Assembly (NCBI GenBank): GCA_030831605.1
Contig: JAURKU010000051.1
Span: 1 to 48,555, forward strand
Direction of reading: 5' to 3'
Origin: Rhodoluna sp.
Lineage (GTDB): Bacteria; Actinomycetota; Actinomycetes; Actinomycetales; Microbacteriaceae
DNA: 48,555 nucleotides
The notes under the pieces are model-generated. The model had not been told where the DNA came from. It worked only from the letters and a program-made list of their open reading frames with translations, and searched no databases. The translations under genes were made by a program, and so were the position numbers. The stretch's first letter is position 1. Every line of letters starts with the position of its first letter. Below are positions 16,800 through 24,994 of the stretch, one piece after another.

Positions 16800-19226
16800 A
16801 TGTCAGATAGCCAGAGCCAAGAGCGCTTTCCCGATGAGCGCATAATAGACATTGATCTAACCAAAGAACTCAGTGATTCATTCCTCGAGTACTCGTATTC
16901 CACCATCTACGCGCGAGCGCTCCCAGATGCTAGAGACGGTCTGAAGCCAGTTCACAGAAGAATCATCTACCAAATGGGTGAAATGGGTTTAAGGCCTGAT
17001 CGGGGCCATGTCAAATCCGCTCGCGTGAGCGGGGAGGTCATGGGTAAATTGCACCCTCATGGCGATGGTGCTATCTATGATGCAATGGTCCGAATGGCAC
17101 AACCATTTACCCTCAGAGTGCCTCTCATCGACGGGCACGGTAACTTTGGCTCACTCGATGATGGACCTGCTGCAGCTCGTTATACCGAGACGCGGCTTTC
17201 TGTTGCTGCTCTATTGATGAACGAGAGCCTTGACGAAGATGTTGTCGATTTCAAACCGAATTATGATGCTCAGCTTTCAGAACCTGAGGTATTGCCAGCT
17301 GCCTTTCCTAACCTATTAGTTAACGGCTCGTCGGGAATAGCCGTGGGCATGGCAACTAACATGGCGCCGCACAATCTTCGAGAAGTTATCGCAGGAGCGA
17401 TTGCACTTCTGAACAACACAAAGTTGGAAAGCGAAGACCTGATGGCTTACATCCCAGGACCTGATTTGCCTACTGGTGGCGTCATAGTTGGGACTGAGGG
17501 TATTCGCGAAGCTTATATGACTGGTCGGGGAAGTTTTAAGACTAGAGCGCGAGTGAGCATTGAGAGCGTCTCCCCGAGAAAACTGGCTCTAGTTGTTACA
17601 GAGCTACCTTATCTAGTTGGACCAGAACGAGTAATAGAAAAAATCAAAGATGGGGTTAACAGTAAGAAGCTGCAAGGTATATCTGACGTTATAGATCTAA
17701 CTGACCGTAACAATGGATTGAAGCTCGTTATCGAACTTAAAACCGGTTTTGATCCAAACACAGTACTTGAACTTCTGTACCGGTTCACTCCCCTCGAGGA
17801 ATCATTCAGTATAAATAACGTAGCCCTCGTTGAGGGACGACCTGAAACTTTGGATCTAAGGGATCTCCTAGGGGTTTATCTTGCTCACCGAATAGTAGTC
17901 ACTAAACGTCGAAGTGAAAATCGACTTGGTAAAAAGCAAGCGAGACTTCATCTGGTCGAAGGCCTGCTGAAGGCAATACTGAGTATCGATGATGTTATAA
18001 AGATCATTCGCGCATCTGAAGAAGCTGATGATGCCCGCAAGAAGCTGATGACGAAGTTCAAGCTCAGTGAACTACAAGCAGAGTACATTCTGGAACTCAA
18101 GCTTCGTAGATTGACTAAGTTCTCGAAGATGGAACTAGAAACTGAAAACAAGCAATTAGTGAAAGAGATTGCCGAGTTGCAGAAGATCTTAAGTTCTGAC
18201 AAGCAACTGCGCGACGTTGTCACTAAAGAATTACAAGATGTGGCCGATAAATACGGGGACGATCGCAGAACCACGATTTTGACAGAATCAAGTGAGCTAA
18301 AGCCAGTTACCGCCGCCAAGGCCGCCGCAGTAGATGCCCAACTCGCTGATTCGCCGTGCTTTATCGTCCTAACGGCAAGCGGGCAAGTCCAGCGCACTTC
18401 ACTTATTCCAGAACCACTGGCAAAACGTAAAAAACACGATGCCATCAATTCAGTTCTTACCAGTTCAACGAGAAGCGACGTTGGATTCCTAAGTTCGGAC
18501 GGTGTAATGCACAGAGTCCACTCGAGCGACATTCCTGCTAGTGAAACTGGTTTTGATGCGGGAAGCAGTATCAACGCTGCCGAGTTCCTAGGATTAGCTA
18601 AGAACATAAATCTGCTTGGGGTATTCGAACTTAGCGATGACACGGTTATTGCAATGGGCACCAGGCAAGGAATAGTGAAAAGGCTAAGTGCCGACTTCCC
18701 CGCAAAGGCCAGTTTCGAAGTTATTTCGCTGAAATCCGGCGACCAACTGATCGGAGCAGCTCAAAGCCAAGACGATCATGAGCTTATCTTTGTCACGAGC
18801 GACGCACAGCTTCTACGTTTTGAGGCCGAACTAGTAAGACCGTTGGGACGTGGTGCTGCTGGCATGGCTGGAATTAAACTTGCCGAGAACGCTAATGCGG
18901 TTTACTTCACCTCTATAGCAATTGATAAAGACACCGTTGTCCTGACCGCGGCAAACAATAGTGAATCACTCGGGGCCGTTGATAGTGGAAGCCTAAAGGT
19001 GAGTGAAATAGCAGAGTTCCCGGCTAAAGGCCGTGCCACAGGTGGAGTGAGAGCGCATAAATTCATTCGCGACGAGAATCAAATCTATTTTGCTTACGTC
19101 GGCGATATGCCTGTCCTAGCTAACTCTTCGTCTGGAAAACCGCTTGAAATTGAAACCAAAAAGGCTAAACGTGATGCCTCTGGAACACCGTTGAGCGCAA
19201 CTATTCTCTCAGCTGGAAAAGCTTAG
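16800..19226 (+). CDS. parC: DNA topoisomerase IV subunit A
   Basis: This 808-residue type IIA topoisomerase A subunit cleaves and passes DNA duplexes with the B subunit encoded convergently next to it. The catalytic tyrosine is Y128 in [11 protein letters not shown]. The quinolone-interaction region reads [17 protein letters not shown], with glycine where E. coli GyrA has S83 and aspartate retained at the D87 equivalent. The C-terminal beta-pinwheel is present but no clear GyrA box (QRRGGKG) is seen, which favours topoisomerase IV over gyrase. The location beside sigA, away from dnaA, supports the second pair known in many Actinobacteria. The ATG has AAGGA upstream. The stop overlaps parE's stop by four bases. 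Confidence 0.9.
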
Positions 19227-21304
19227 GCGTCAATTCTTTCTCTTTCAAAGCTATCTGCTTGATCGATAATAAAATCGCGTCGAGGTGCTACCTCGTTACC
19301 CATGAGTAACTCGAACATTCGTTCCGCCTGTTCCGCATCAGCAACGGTAACCCTGCGAAGAGCGCGGCTTTTCCTGTCCATGGTGGTCTCGGCAAGTTGA
19401 TCTGCATCCATCTCCCCTAGACCTTTATAACGCTGGATAGGTTCCTGATACTTCTTACCGGCTTTTTCTAACTTAGCTAGCAAGTTTTCTAGCTCTGATT
19501 GAGAGTATGTGTAGACAATCTCATTAGCCTTTGAACCTGGATTGACAATCACAACTCGGTGAAGTGGCGGCACAGCCGCAAAAACTCTGCCATCTTCGAC
19601 AAGCGGACGCATGTATTTGTAGAAAAGCGTTAGAAGAAGGGTTCTAATATGTGCCCCATCCACATCAGCATCGCTCATGAGAATTATTTTGCCGTAGCGG
19701 GCGGAACTTAGATCGAATGTTCTGCCAGAGCCAGCACCGAGCACCTGAATGATTGAGGCACACTCAGCGTTATTCAACATGTCGGTTATGGCAGCTTTCT
19801 GCACGTTAAGGATTTTTCCTCGAATTGGCAACAAAGCCTGGTATTCGCTGTTTCGAGCCAATTTTGCTGTACCTAGGGCTGACTCACCCTCAACGATTAT
19901 CAATTCAGAGTCCAAGGTGTCTTGGGTGCGACAGTCGACGAGTTTTGTAGGAAGCGAGGAAGACTCAAGTGCTGTCTTACGTCGCTGGGTTTCCTTGTGT
20001 GTTCTCGCTGACACACGAGATTTCATCTCGTTTACAACTTTTTCAAGAACCAGAGCTGTCTGAGCTTTATCGTCGCGTTTTGAGCTGTTGAACCGATCGG
20101 TTAGAGCTTTGGTGACTACGTTCGAAACTATGTTTTTGATAGCAGGCGTGCCCAAGATCTCTTTGGTTTGACCCTCGAACTGGGGTTCAGGCAATCGAAC
20201 CGTAACAATTGCGGTGAGCCCCGTGAGCACATCATCTTTTTCGATTTTGTCATTGCCGAGCCTAAATTTTCGAGAATTAGCCTCTGCTTGCGTTCGGAAA
20301 ACTTTAAGCACAGCCTGTTCAAAACCTTGCATGTGAGTTCCACCTTTAGGAGTGGCGATGATGTTCACAAAGCTTTTTACGTTGGTGTCGTATTCAGATC
20401 CCCACCGAACTACAACGTCTACTTCACATTTTCGCTCAATTTCCTTGGACTCCATGTTGCCCTTAGCGTTTAGAACTGGAACGGTTTCCGAATAGTTCCC
20501 GGTTCCGCTAAGACGCCAGATGTTGCTAAGCGGAGCGTCCTTAGCGAGAAAATCTACGAATTCGATGATTCCACCTTGAAAGTAAAACTCATGGTTCTCA
20601 GCTTTTGCCGAGCGCTGATCGCTAACGATGAGTTTCAGACCAGGGACCAGAAAAGCGGTTTGCCTCGCCCTGGCAAGGATTTCTTCTAGAACGAATTCTG
20701 ATTCCTTGACAAAGATTTGTTTGTCTGGCCAAAATCTAACTCTGGAACCAGTCTTGCCCTTGGCGACTTTTCCGATTTCACGCAAGTAGCTCTTGTCGCT
20801 GAATGCTTTGAAACTATTGCCCGGAGCTATCCCTTTTTTATCATCAAAAGTACCCGGTTCGCCGCGATGAAAGCTCATCGCAAAAGTTTTACCATCTCGA
20901 TCTACTTCAACATCAAGTCGCTCCGATAAAGCGTTGACAACCGAAGCGCCAACACCGTGGAGTCCGCCTGATGCTGCGTAAGACCCCGAGCCGAACTTTC
21001 CACCCGCATGTAACTTGGTGAAAACCACCTCAACGCCGCTAAGCCCAGTTTTAGGTTCAATATCCACGGGGATTCCACGAGCTTCATCTGAAATCTCTAC
21101 ACTTTTATCTTTGTGTAAGGTGACCCAAATACTCCTACCAAAGCCCGCTAATGCCTCGTCAACAGAGTTGTCGATTATTTCCCAAAGACAGTGCATGAGA
21201 CCGCGGCTATCGGTTGAACCGATGTACATTCCCGGTCTTTTGCGTACAGCCTCTAAGCCCTCAAGAACCGAGAGGTGTCTGGCTGAATAGTCATTTGATG
21301 GCAC
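19223..21304 (-). CDS. parE: DNA topoisomerase IV subunit B
   Basis: This 693-residue GHKL ATPase/TOPRIM subunit drives strand passage with ParC. The ATP-binding motifs are [13 protein letters not shown] and [17 protein letters not shown] (about residues 42-125). The TOPRIM glutamate sits in [15 protein letters not shown], where EGD is usual, and the metal aspartates are in [16 protein letters not shown]. The start is GTG with no ribosome binding site, and TAGGCT ends six bases upstream, so a leaderless mRNA is likely. parC and parE are convergent here, unlike the adjacent co-directional arrangement of many bacteria. A call of second GyrB cannot be fully excluded from one window. Confidence 0.9.
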
Positions 21305-21442
21305 CTAAACAGCCTAAGTAGCAGGCACTGGAACAGACGGATGGACACTCAGCCAAATAACAAGTATTCGCAGTTAGCGAAATAGGGCGCTACAGGGAAG
21401 AATCTTGTCCAATTTTATGTTTGAGTAACTATGGAGGAACAA

Positions 21443-21652
21443 ATGGAGCAAACTGAAGACACCACCCCGGTCGAGGAGACCGTAACACTTACCGCCGCGG
21501 ATCGCTGTGACGTCTGTGGAGCGCAAGCATTCATTCGTGTTGTGCTAGCAACCGGCGACTTGGTGTTTTGCGGCCACCATGGAAGTGAAAACAAGGACAA
21601 ACTCTCCCCGATCGCCATTTCTTGGCAGGATGAAACCTCAAAGCTTAGCTAG
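21443..21652 (+). CDS. Small DUF7455-like zinc-binding protein
   Basis: This 69-residue protein has the actinobacterial DUF7455 pattern: LTAADRCDVCGAQAFIRV, then LVFCGHHG, giving a CxxC plus CxHH arrangement that probably binds one zinc ion. I place the start at the second ATG (21443) because GGAGG lies five bases before it; the upstream ATG at 21431 is itself followed by that binding site. The gene lies near sigA and parE in many Actinobacteria. Its function is unknown. Its stop interlocks with that of gatD through a shared CTAG. Confidence 0.8.
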   Translation: MEQTEDTTPVEETVTLTAADRCDVCGAQAFIRVVLATGDLVFCGHHGSENKDKLSPIAISWQDETSKLS

Positions 21653-22233
21653 TGCTCGAAAGCTGTTTTCCTGCTGATTGATGAAAGTTCATCTAGTCGT
21701 GATGCCTCTGGACTTAGTGGAACTTTCTTGAACCAACCAAGCTCAAAACAGATTTTGTCAGCAAGATCTGGATTCTTTGCAAGTATCGGACCGTGCAGCA
21801 TAGTGAACCATGAAGAATAAAGTTTCTGGATTAGCGGTGCTTTTGAAGGGCTGTTCAGATAGCCAACAATGTCATCTTGAGCTGTCGCGAATTCGCTAAC
21901 ATGATCGCCTTCTTCATAATTCTTACCTAGCTCAGAAAGTACCTTCAACGCTCCCGAGGACACAGCGAAGAGTGGCTTGCGTGATTCTACAAAACTAGAA
22001 AGCTGCGCGAAAAGTCTTGGTTCGCTCCTTGAGATGAATTCCCAGGCGGCTATAGACCCGTGGCCTAAGAACAGAAAATCTACATCGTCAATCTTTTTAA
22101 GCGGAATGTCAACAACAAGAGAACTAACCCCTCGAAGCTCTAGCCTCTTTTTTAAAACAAGAAGATTAGCCTGGTCACCATTTAGATTCAGATCCTCTGG
22201 GAAGAGTGAACCTAATCTTATCTTTCTAGGCAC
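21649..22233 (-). CDS. gatD: GatD-like glutamine amidotransferase lacking the nucleophile Cys
   Basis: GatD normally hydrolyses glutamine and passes ammonia to MurT for amidation of D-glutamate in lipid II. This 194-residue protein is clearly of that family: LNLNGDQANLLVLKKR at the N-terminus matches the LNLYxDxGNIIALRQR segment, and LHGPILAKN is conserved with H147. At the position of the nucleophilic cysteine (usually CGG) it reads VSSG, so S92 replaces Cys. The GGGSDREQ loop is reduced to GHGSIAAWE, and the NHGGR segment is absent. Glutaminase activity by the normal mechanism is therefore unlikely. The GTG start is coupled to the murT end, with GGAGG inside murT. It is shorter than usual (about 240). 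Confidence 0.85.
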   Translation of the reverse strand: MPRKIRLGSLFPEDLNLNGDQANLLVLKKRLELRGVSSLVVDIPLKKIDDVDFLFLGHGSIAAWEFISRSEPRLFAQLSSFVESRKPLFAVSSGALKVLSELGKNYEEGDHVSEFATAQDDIVGYLNSPSKAPLIQKLYSSWFTMLHGPILAKNPDLADKICFELGWFKKVPLSPEASRLDELSSISRKTAFEH

Positions 22234-23479
22234 GCTTAACCTCCTCGGGGTCGGTAAAACCTAGGTACCGACGGAGTCGACGCATCGCATCAGCTGAGTA
22301 AAGAACGGTCTTTCGACCGCCTGATTCATTCTGACTCTCCATGAACTCATCAATTGCCTTGAAGTAATCAGGCTCGACTGATTGCACTGCGACCTCGTTA
22401 TAGAGAAGAACGAGCGCGGCATCTGCGTAGTTGAAGCCTGAAACAGTCTTAACTTTACGAAGCTTGGAATAGTCAACAGTCCAGAGCCACGATGGATCAT
22501 GGACATCACGACCAATTGCAAACATCACGGGGCCGATCTCGGCCGGTAGATTGTCGAGGTTTAGCTGAAGGCTTACCGGATTCTGAATCAGAATGAACTC
22601 AACCTCTTGATTGTTGATTATCCGAACCTCGCCTCTGGAGAAAACCGGAGGGATCTCATTCAATGCCTTACAAGCCAATTGGTAATCAAATTGATTTTGA
22701 AGTATTTCTTCCGCTATCGCTAAGGATGCAACAACATCAGACGCGAAGTGTGCTCCCCGCGAAGGTAGTTCAATATCGCTTTTCCCATATCTGCTAGCGA
22801 TAGTCACTAGTCGACCCGCCATCGAAGTTGCCTCATAGGACGGTTGCGGTCTTGGCTTTTCCTGTTGGTATGTCTTGGAGTACTCAATTTTTGGAAGATT
22901 AGCGCCTAAACCAAAATACTTAACTGATTTATTCTCTGCAACTGGCATTTCGAGACAATTTTGGTCATCTGCATTTAGCACGACAGAGTTCGTGGCGGCA
23001 GCAGAGACCAGTGCTAGCTTCTGTTTAACCAGAGCCGGGTCAATAAATCTGTCTAGCTGGTCATCGAAAACATTAAGTATTGCCGAAACCTTGGGCTTCA
23101 CTTTGGCGACCGTAGCCGCAGCATGTGCTTCGTCCATTTCTAGGATTGCAATCTCCCCTGGAACCTGGCCTCGAAGATTGCCAGTTTTGATGATTGTTGA
23201 GAAAAAACCCTGTTCGATGTTTGCGGTGCTTGGATTGGTAAAGACCGAAATTCCGTGGGCCCTAACGATAGCGACAACCATTTTTGTGGTGGTCGATTTA
23301 CCAGCAGTTCCTGTTATGACGACAAGTCCCCTGCTGAAAGAATTTAGCGTCCGATAAACCAGATTCGGAACAATTTTGCTAACTACTAAGCCGGGAAGTG
23401 CAGACCCGCCTCCAGGCCTGACCAATCTAACCGCGAAGCGAACCAGGCGGCCGATCAGTAAAGCTGCCGAGACTAGCAA
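22226..23479 (-). CDS. murT: MurT-like Mur ligase, without zinc ribbon cysteines
   Basis: MurT is the Mur-ligase-like partner of GatD that activates the alpha-carboxyl of D-Glu in lipid II. This 417-residue protein has the P-loop GTAGKSTTT (57-65), the central-domain motifs LEMDEAHA and VFDDQLDRF, NADDQN, and the C-terminal DUF1727-like GRDVHDPSWLWTVDY, which corresponds to GRDvSWLWDvD but with a short insertion. The Cys4 zinc ribbon normally between about 200 and 235 is replaced by a cysteine-free stretch, and the KNPAG motif reads QNPVS. An N-terminal hydrophobic segment is present. The start is TTG, four bases after the sigA stop, so it is cotranscribed with sigA or from within it. ATP use is plausible; amidation is doubtful. 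Confidence 0.85.
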   Translation of the reverse strand: MLVSAALLIGRLVRFAVRLVRPGGGSALPGLVVSKIVPNLVYRTLNSFSRGLVVITGTAGKSTTTKMVVAIVRAHGISVFTNPSTANIEQGFFSTIIKTGNLRGQVPGEIAILEMDEAHAAATVAKVKPKVSAILNVFDDQLDRFIDPALVKQKLALVSAAATNSVVLNADDQNCLEMPVAENKSVKYFGLGANLPKIEYSKTYQQEKPRPQPSYEATSMAGRLVTIASRYGKSDIELPSRGAHFASDVVASLAIAEEILQNQFDYQLACKALNEIPPVFSRGEVRIINNQEVEFILIQNPVSLQLNLDNLPAEIGPVMFAIGRDVHDPSWLWTVDYSKLRKVKTVSGFNYADAALVLLYNEVAVQSVEPDYFKAIDEFMESQNESGGRKTVLYSADAMRRLRRYLGFTDPEEVKRA

Positions 23480-23482
23480 GGA

Positions 23483-24994
23483 TTAGTCTTCTTTTCGGTA
23501 ATCTCTCAAGCCCTGAGCTCGAGATGGGTGACGAAGTTTTGACATTGCTTTGTTCTCAATCTGACGGATACGTTCACGGGTTACTCCCATGTCTGCTCCA
23601 ATCTGATCAAGAGTCTTCATAACGCCATCGTCTAGACCGTAACGGCTTCTAATAATCTGAGCTTCTCTTGGATTCATTCCCTCTAGAACACGAAGCAACT
23701 CATTCCGCTTAGCTTGGTCTATAGCAATTTCATCTGGCTTTTCCGAGCTGGTGTCTTCAATCAGATCACCGAATTCACTGTCTCCGTCTTCACCAAGTGG
23801 CGTCGATAGAGAAATAGGCTCTCTTCCATACTTCTGAACCTCGACAACCTTCTCAGGTGTCATGTCTAATTCTCTGGCTAGTTCTTCTGGAGTTGGTTCT
23901 CGACCCAAGTCTTGAAGTAGCTGTCGCTGAACTCTGGAAAGTTTGTTAATAACTTCGACCATGTGGACAGGAATGCGAATAGTTCTTGCCTGGTCAGCCA
24001 TTGCGCGGGTAATAGCTTGACGAATCCACCAGGTCGCGTAGGTAGAGAATTTATAGCCCTTGGTGTAGTCAAACTTCTCAACAGCACGAATTAAACCGAG
24101 ATTTCCTTCTTGAATCAGATCAAGAAATTGCATGCCTCTTCCGGTGTATCTCTTTGCCAAGCTAACAACAAGACGTAAGTTGGCCTCCAGCAGGTGACTC
24201 TTCGCCCTCTGCCCATCTTTAACTACCCACTTTAAATCTCGAATCACATCACGCGAGAGCTTTTTGTCAGTAGCCAACTTTTCTTCGGCAAAGAGTCCAG
24301 CTTCAATTCTTTTTGCAAGCTCGACTTCCAGTTCAGCATTTAACAGGGCAACCTTACCGATTTGCTTTAAATAGTCTTTTACCGGGTCTGCAGTAGCGCC
24401 AGTGATGCTTGTGGTTTGGACAGGAATGTCATCGTCTTCCTTGTGCGAAATAATCAATGCACCTTCAGGAACGACTAACTCCTCTTCCTCCTCCTCTACA
24501 GCTACCTCAGGGATCTCAGCCTCGATAGTGTCTACATCTTCGCCGGTCAGAAGTTGTTCTGGATCGACGGCCTCAATTTCATCATCTTCTTCGTCTAATT
24601 CGAAGTCTTCGGAATCTTTTCCACCCTTTGTTGGAACAATCTTCTTTGCAGGTTTCACCTTCGAAGCAGGCTTTACGCTTTGCGCTTTTACAGCGGAACT
24701 CTTCTTGGCATCTTTCTTTACAGGAGCGACAGCAGTTTTCTTAGCTGCTGGCTTTACAGGTGACTTTACAGCGGCTTTAGCAACAGTCTTAGTCTTAGTA
24801 GCTGCGGCAGCTTTCTTGGTGATAGTTGCCTTTGTGGATGAAGTCTTCGTTACAGGCTTTTTAGGCTCTGCTTTTACCGTCGGCTTTTTCGCGACAGTTT
24901 TGGCCACGACTTTAGCTGGCTTAGCCTTTGCGACGGGTGCGCTGGTTTTCTTCGGACTCTTCGCCGAAGTTTTCTTCTCTGCCTTAGCGGCCAT
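23483..24994 (-). CDS. sigA: Principal RNA polymerase sigma factor SigA
   Basis: This 503-residue primary sigma factor directs RNA polymerase to housekeeping promoters. The core-binding and -10 recognition region includes [20 protein letters not shown] and [15 protein letters not shown]; the -35 reader is [18 protein letters not shown] near the C-terminus. The first about 125 residues are an Ala-Lys-Pro-rich basic tail resembling histone H1 tails, followed by a strongly acidic segment ([13 protein letters not shown]). Such tails occur in actinobacterial principal sigma factors. The ATG has AAAAGGAT upstream. murT and gatD follow on the same strand. The flanking parC/parE and DUF7455 genes fit the hrdB/sigA neighbourhood. 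Confidence 0.98.

Follow-up and report, generated by a model that had tools for sequence, protein, structure and literature searches.

What can a MurT/GatD pair be doing when its GatD has lost the catalytic cysteine of the glutaminase? The question was raised by two adjacent genes in a 48,555-nucleotide stretch of Rhodoluna sp. DNA, analyzed at its full length and referred to below as the window. A B-type wall is the chemical mark of Microbacteriaceae, and in B-type peptidoglycan the alpha-carboxyl of D-Glu carries the cross-bridge. A preliminary description of the window had suggested that the pair may have been re-tasked from amidation to the addition of an amino acid to D-Glu, or to regulation. 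Both genes were found where that description had placed them (Table 1).

Table 1. Positions of the murT/gatD locus and its borders in the window
Feature	Position	Strand	Details and basis
gatD-like, class I GATase-fold subunit without catalytic Cys	21649..22233	-	194 aa, GTG start; ORF
Ser92 codon, at the catalytic Cys position	21958..21960	-	Alignment column; position computed from ORF
His147 codon, catalytic His of HGP motif, retained	21793..21795	-	Alignment; position computed from ORF
murT-like, Mur ligase	22226..23479	-	417 aa, TTG start; ORF
P-loop GTAGKST, residues 57-63, GKS instead of canonical GKT	23291..23311	-	Alignment
Asp328 codon of MurT, aligned with S. aureus MurT Asp349	22496..22498	-	Alignment
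rpoD (sigma factor), upstream slot border	23483..24994	-	ORF named from sequence; conserved neighbour
parE, downstream slot border	19223..21304	-	ORF named from sequence; conserved neighbour
Small ORF convergent with gatD, 73 aa, CxxC and FCGHH	21431..21652	+	Translation

The gatD and murT reading frames overlap by 8 bases. In the alignment the window GatD has AVSSG against V-C-G or I-C-G in canonical rows, with S92 in the Cys column, and H147 (LHGP), the catalytic His of the HGP motif, is kept; this confirms the substitution and the retention that had been read from the window alone. The GGGSDREQ stretch is gone, as had been noted, its equivalent being GHGSIAAW, and most of the segment from N127 to HGP is deleted. 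This extra deletion of the window GatD is shared by its congeners and by a few further small genomes (L029, L051); most relatives read do not have it. In one GatD column the window has His where every canonical, clade I and clade II row compared has Arg; the column is a candidate counterpart of R128, which captures glutamine in S. aureus.

On the MurT side the P-loop Lys (GTAGKST), an acidic ExDE motif and D328, the equivalent of S. aureus D349, are all retained in the alignment, the P-loop as had been noted before. The D349N substitution severely reduced the activity of S. aureus MurT (PMC6113224, PMC6085368). The window MurT has two Cys, neither in a CxxC motif, and the Cys4 zinc ribbon is missing. 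This observation of the preliminary description stands, but the loss is not a special one: among 51 MurT of the order whose GatD is intact, only 5 have the motif. Most intact pairs of the order are therefore also devoid of it, and we rejected zinc-ribbon loss as a signal.

Pfam recognized Mur_ligase_M (1.6e-13) and MurT_C (6e-7) in the window MurT, both above the cut-off. No Pfam family was matched by the window GatD, and its E value of 1e-8 with the NCBIfam GatD model is below the cut-off; the NCBIfam scores of the pair lie far under the cut-offs (91.8 of 800 bits and 35.3 of 450). AlphaFold (AF2) gave confident models of MurT (pLDDT 91.0) and GatD (94.5), for which the top Foldseek matches were solved MurT and GatD chains, respectively, the closest solved proteins being MurT and GatD of S. 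pneumoniae, S. aureus and S. pyogenes. Four congeners (L003-L006) keep the open frame and are also without the Cys, which disposes of a sequencing error as the source of the substitution. Open frames in the congeners and the confident models demonstrate that the window gatD is not degenerate. A second, intact pair was also looked for, and the organism's own genome (80.85% complete) holds a single MurT_C (PF08353).

Among known systems the pair is closest to the MurT/GatD lipid II isoglutaminyl synthase (S. aureus 6GS2/6H5E, S. pneumoniae 6FQB, S. pyogenes 9SQ9), with which it shares the two-gene order, a Mur ligase with MurT_C, a GATase-fold partner beside murT, the HGP motif, the D349 equivalent and the best structural match. 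It differs from that synthase in having no catalytic Cys, no GGG stretch (GHG instead) and Ser in the P-loop, in its fixed place beside rpoD and in falling so far under the NCBIfam cut-offs. MurE, MurF and the pseudomurein ligases use ATP to couple an amino acid or a dipeptide to a carboxyl of a wall precursor. The fold of these enzymes is similar to that of the window MurT (Foldseek), but they work without a GatD partner, and MurE and MurF carry an N-terminal UDP-binding domain that is missing in MurT (PMC6113224). The archaeal MurT and MurT-like proteins of pseudomurein makers are MurT relatives outside the amidating setting, including MurT-like copies without GatD; they belong to another lineage, and the part of the article text covered here mentions neither glutaminase nor cysteine nor Microbacteri (PMC11915815).

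We searched 249 Microbacteriaceae genomes with the window MurT and obtained a match in 227 of them at E 1e-3, a loose threshold which admits other Mur ligases. At the 198 loci where GatD was read, with duplicates and outgroups counted in, the residue at the nucleophile position is G 90, C 67, A 22, S 10, N 4, H 3 and T 2. With sixteen duplicate loci left out of the slot count, there were 133 Microbacteriaceae loci, 110 with rpoD in the fetched flank and 23 without. The gene order rpoD-murT-gatD-parE is conserved in Microbacteriaceae, and at all 110 rpoD-flank loci murT is on the rpoD strand, the gap between them having a median of 14 bases and a maximum of 865. None of the 108 readable GatD in this slot has the Cys, GatD not being found by profile at the other two loci (L161 and L190). 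Off the slot the Cys is present at 16 of 23 loci and absent from seven; all 16 Cys pairs read in Microbacteriaceae are thus off-slot. Three genomes (G054, G066, G209) contain both a pair without the Cys, which we call dead, and a canonical Cys pair. The slot murT of L161 (G081) stands with no profile-recognised GatD, which is either very diverged or lost.

Outgroup families of the order and class are assumed, from family, to have A-type walls. Outside Microbacteriaceae the Cys was found in 60 of 60 readable GatD: 51 of 51 in the order (52 loci, one with no GatD found), where loci were the best matches to a canonical query or chosen from the list of that query, and nine of nine in the class (10 loci), where they were the best matches to a clade I query. 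An equal frequency of the substitution in relatives with presumed A-type walls, the outcome that would have spoken against re-tasking, was therefore not observed. Absence of the Cys at the slot and its presence outside the family differ by more than chance.

Changes in GatD extend beyond the nucleophile. In clade I, as compared with canonical GatD, Y-G-D has become N-G-D, GGGQD is lost and I-G-N has become T-D-D; some clade II rows have G-E or G-D in place of the canonical I-G-N. Both clades retain the His together with much of the glutamine pocket.

With FastTree (182 MurT; L199 was too short and was left out) the G, A, S, N and T rows of the family form one clade, and L198 stands apart. With IQ-TREE (90 MurT) the main dead Microbacteriaceae clade has a UFBoot of 99, and its sister is a Cys-bearing Microbacteriaceae pair, L042 (100). 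The main loss in Microbacteriaceae is thus one event and supplies one data point for a link with wall type in that family.

Acetobacterium and Eubacterium were picked as B-type organisms before their genes were read. Acetobacterium has B-type murein, and Erysipelothrix represents another B-type lineage. A review table lists A types as well as B2-alpha for Eubacterium walls (PMC11382707). Clostridia genomes were fetched by a scan with an Acetobacterium ATP synthase subunit, and MurT_C was present in 5 of 24: two A. wieringae, A. dehalogenans, a Eubacteriaceae MAG and a Bacillota MAG, all of one family. In the A. wieringae family MurT_C was detected in 36 of 40 genomes and a canonical pair in 8 of 40. 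We read 30 loci of this family, 22 of the Acetobacterium kind and eight canonical. All 22 pairs of the Acetobacterium kind are without the Cys (Thr, or Val in L320) and have Leu for the catalytic His, whereas the Cys and His are present in all eight canonical pairs. Automatic alignment of the Acetobacterium kind put Gly beside Thr in the Cys column, a one-residue ambiguity that gives no Cys either way. The I-G-N stretch is G-D-D in this kind.

Of 291 genomes searched in the class Clostridia, 154 matched a dead GatD query. Eleven of the best 30 of these loci are without the Cys, six of them not placed in the A. wieringae family; the loci were ranked by likeness to the dead query and so give no rate. 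The GatD of L348, L353, L354 and L337-L339 have neither Cys nor His, and their hosts are candidates for undescribed B-type walls.

In the IQ-TREE phylogeny the Acetobacterium kind, these six Clostridia loci, L198, L199 and a further Microbacteriaceae group with both Cys and His lost (the H kind) make up a second dead lineage (100), placed beside canonical clostridial pairs. Loss of Cys and His in the Acetobacterium lineage is of separate origin (UFBoot 100), and because the second dead lineage is separate in the tree, the glutaminase was lost at least twice. The P-loop follows a similar distribution: GKS is found in 108 of 117 Microbacteriaceae rows that are non-Cys or GatD-less and in 20 of 22 rows of the Acetobacterium kind (one more had no match and one a false match), against 0 of 16 canonical pairs in Microbacteriaceae, 0 of 8 in the Acetobacterium family and 2 of 51 order outgroup rows. 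GKT is retained by the H kind and L199. The observation is therefore wider than the window alone, being clade-wide, at a fixed locus and in two lineages. The proposal of re-tasking has gained from Cys loss with an intact ligase throughout a clade and its repetition in Acetobacterium/Eubacterium relatives; its zinc-ribbon argument has fallen away.

The rpoD-parE slot is not always filled by the main dead clade. The H kind occupies it in some Microbacteriaceae (L195-L197, L418, L419); here His (THNALEVLG) stands in for the Cys, and Leu or Ile for the His of HGP, and the zinc-type CxxC motif is kept in MurT. We also took 29 rpoD loci, all but that of the control G009 from genomes with no detected dead pair, and found no MurT downstream of rpoD except in G009. 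The stretch read reached parE at 10 of the 29 loci (L379, L381-L383, L387-L391, L407). In 15 of 21 genomes with no detected MurT a gene similar to CofE lies between rpoD and parE (L408-L417, L420, L422-L425), accompanied by an ATP-grasp gene in 13 and a racemase-like gene in 10. CofE, the F420-0 gamma-glutamyl ligase (PF01996), is an amide ligase. Its relative in the slot of these 15 MurT-less Microbacteriaceae is not a Mur ligase and would be a functional stand-in, not a homologue. Pfam on slot fragments gave F420_ligase (E 1.2e-5, just above the cut-off), ATPgrasp_ST (3.6e-11) and Ala_racemase_N (4e-25). Racemase-like genes are likewise present beside 17 dead pairs read (L187 weakly), and an ATP-grasp gene lies next to L148, to L165 and to the H-kind pair of G009. 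The racemase-like genes could simply encode alanine racemases of the ordinary sort; it is possible that the CofE-like, ATP-grasp and racemase-like genes of the slot make up a second wall-bridge module.

A protein search for the CofE-like gene in 50 genomes gave two matches, G044 (no MurT found; another contig) and G053. G053 is the one match among 20 genomes with a dead pair, and G044 the one among 6 MurT-less genomes with no CofE-like gene in the slot; the 12 genomes with a Cys pair alone, 7 of the order outgroup and 5 Eubacteriaceae gave none. In G053, a member of Microbacteriaceae, a dead MurT/GatD of the Acetobacterium kind adjoins the CofE-like gene (L198/L426), and the locus suggests transfer between phyla. 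Five MurT-less genomes (G019, G022, G049, G051, G062) yielded no CofE-like gene either, and neither a dead pair nor a CofE-like gene came up in the 12 genomes whose only detected pair has the Cys. The many-genome searches scored the best 7, 4, 6 or 5 candidates per genome, and absences in them are weak; those cited here come from genomes with all candidates scored and from the rpoD loci, read for about 1.5 kb downstream (192 bases in L380, 987 in L391). G164 and G215 count as MurT-less by best-candidate searches and their read slots only, and G186 as Cys-only by searches and its read slot. The notion that every member of Microbacteriaceae carries a dead pair was dropped, since rpoD loci and genomes without any were found. 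With a CofE-like gene in the slot, or neither system, many Microbacteriaceae are without the dead pair, and the trait is not one-to-one with the family.

For one genome the wall type could be taken from the literature. G010, of 1,430,433 bp, is taken to be Rhodoluna lacicola, whose closed genome has exactly this length, and its GatD reads AVATGH, with Ala at the Cys position. Its wall is of B2-beta type with 2,4-diaminobutyric acid, and gave D-Ala-D-Dab and Gly-D-Glu peptides, the latter called characteristic of the B-type (PMC4156110). The dead pair is thus present in an organism with a measured B-type wall, R. lacicola being the only genome here for which a paper supports the wall type. Descriptions of Subtercola, Agreia and Frondihabitans as B2-gamma or B2-beta (PMC5945732) and of Leucobacter chironomi as B-type (PMC4511665) accord with the family trait. 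The classification of group B peptidoglycan is due to Schleifer and Kandler (1972, cited in PMC4156110). Titles and abstract openings among the matches listed in our literature search, which covered few subscription journals, named no enzyme joining the B-type bridge to D-Glu and made no link of MurT/GatD or any other ligase to that bridge. The murT/gatD operon has been called universal in Actinobacteria, and the distribution section of that article does not mention loss of the Cys (PMC6085368).

How then could the dead pair act? Both C94S and C94G abolish the activity of S. aureus GatD/MurT in vitro (PMC6113224, PMC6085368). GatD with Ser, Gly or Ala should therefore be unable to use glutamine, and by this analogy the pair should no longer make ammonia. 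As judged from sequence, MurT of the dead pair probably activates the alpha-carboxyl of D-Glu and joins an amino acid to it in place of ammonia, which would be the first step of the B-type bridge. An amino-acid ligase is the best reading because the activation chemistry is kept, the ammonia source is lost and the lineages concerned are ones with an amino acid on the D-Glu alpha-carboxyl. MurT with ATP would convert this carboxyl of lipid II to an acyl phosphate, the intermediate proposed for the canonical enzyme. A free amino acid, possibly a D-diamino acid like the D-Dab of the Rhodoluna B2 wall, would attack it through its amine, and the product would be the first bond of the cross-bridge. 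The former glutamine pocket of GatD could serve as a scaffold or an amino-acid site, in which the acidic residues of the T-D-D, G-E, G-D or G-D-D stretch could, as a guess, hold the diamino acid. Racemase-like neighbours could supply D-amino acids.

That a different amide-ligase family can take over the slot from the pair points to one shared step, for which the second dead lineage and the CofE-like ligase would be exchangeable solutions. We put at about even the chance that the rpoD-parE slot is the B-type cross-bridge locus of Microbacteriaceae, and that the bridging amino acid is coupled to D-Glu there either by a MurT/GatD lacking the glutaminase, which arose at least twice and passed from one phylum to another, or by an unrelated CofE-like ligase, the racemase-like and ATP-grasp neighbours supplying and extending this amino acid; these would be the first genes of the group B wall.

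Retention of the MurT active-site residues, of the GatD fold and of the HGP motif facing MurT could also be explained if MurT amidated D-Glu from free ammonia, with GatD persisting as a structural relic. This is unlikely, as a canonical Cys pair accompanies the dead pair in three genomes and the B-type alpha-carboxyl by definition carries the bridge. The pair could also be a ligase or pseudoenzyme complex with another substrate than the D-Glu alpha-carboxyl, or with a regulatory role in the wall. Such a role would account for the clade I pocket changes beyond the Cys (N-G-D, loss of GGGQD, T-D-D) and for dead pairs in Clostridia that are not known to have a B-type wall; we regard it as rather unlikely, given that a second amide-ligase family with racemase-like genes fills the same slot and that each of the two origins lies in a lineage with B-type members.

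It could further be argued that shared ancestry is all that connects the loss with the wall, a single Cys loss in Microbacteriaceae being coincident with their B-type peptidoglycan. There is indeed a single main clade, and in a family known for the B-type wall the loss and the wall are inseparable. Against this, the Eubacteriaceae loss is of separate origin and the slot has been refilled by non-orthologous dead pairs and CofE-like genes, which makes coincidence improbable. Degenerating pseudogenes, a reading prompted by the short (194 aa) and diverged window GatD, are hardly credible and were rejected: open frames and conserved motifs persist at 108 slot loci and the AlphaFold models are confident.

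The bridge-ligase reading leaves several observations aside. It does not explain the genomes with a Cys pair only or with neither system, the dead pairs of Clostridia L337-L339, L348, L353 and L354, or the His retention in the first lineage. The dead pairs of those Clostridia, which are not known to have a B-type wall, count against it, as do the canonical pairs in 8 of 40 genomes of the A. wieringae family, and the retained His and much of the glutamine pocket in clades I and II are also compatible with a site that binds glutamine or some other ligand. If the five genomes with neither system and the 12 with a Cys pair only have B-type walls, another route to the bridge exists.

If the bridge-ligase reading is true, the dead pairs provide candidate genes and a mechanism for the B-type bridge and a marker of wall type for genomes and MAGs, and an amidating enzyme has been turned into an amino-acid ligase by switching off its glutaminase partner. 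The presence of murT/gatD need not then mean an amidated wall.

Two minor observations concern the surroundings of the slot. A peptide similar to that of the small plus-strand ORF convergent with gatD is encoded near rpoD in L383; the argument above is independent of this ORF. In G015, a very small Microbacteriaceae genome (contig of 927,303 bp), a dead pair with Ser at the Cys position lies beside rpoD (L187/L219).
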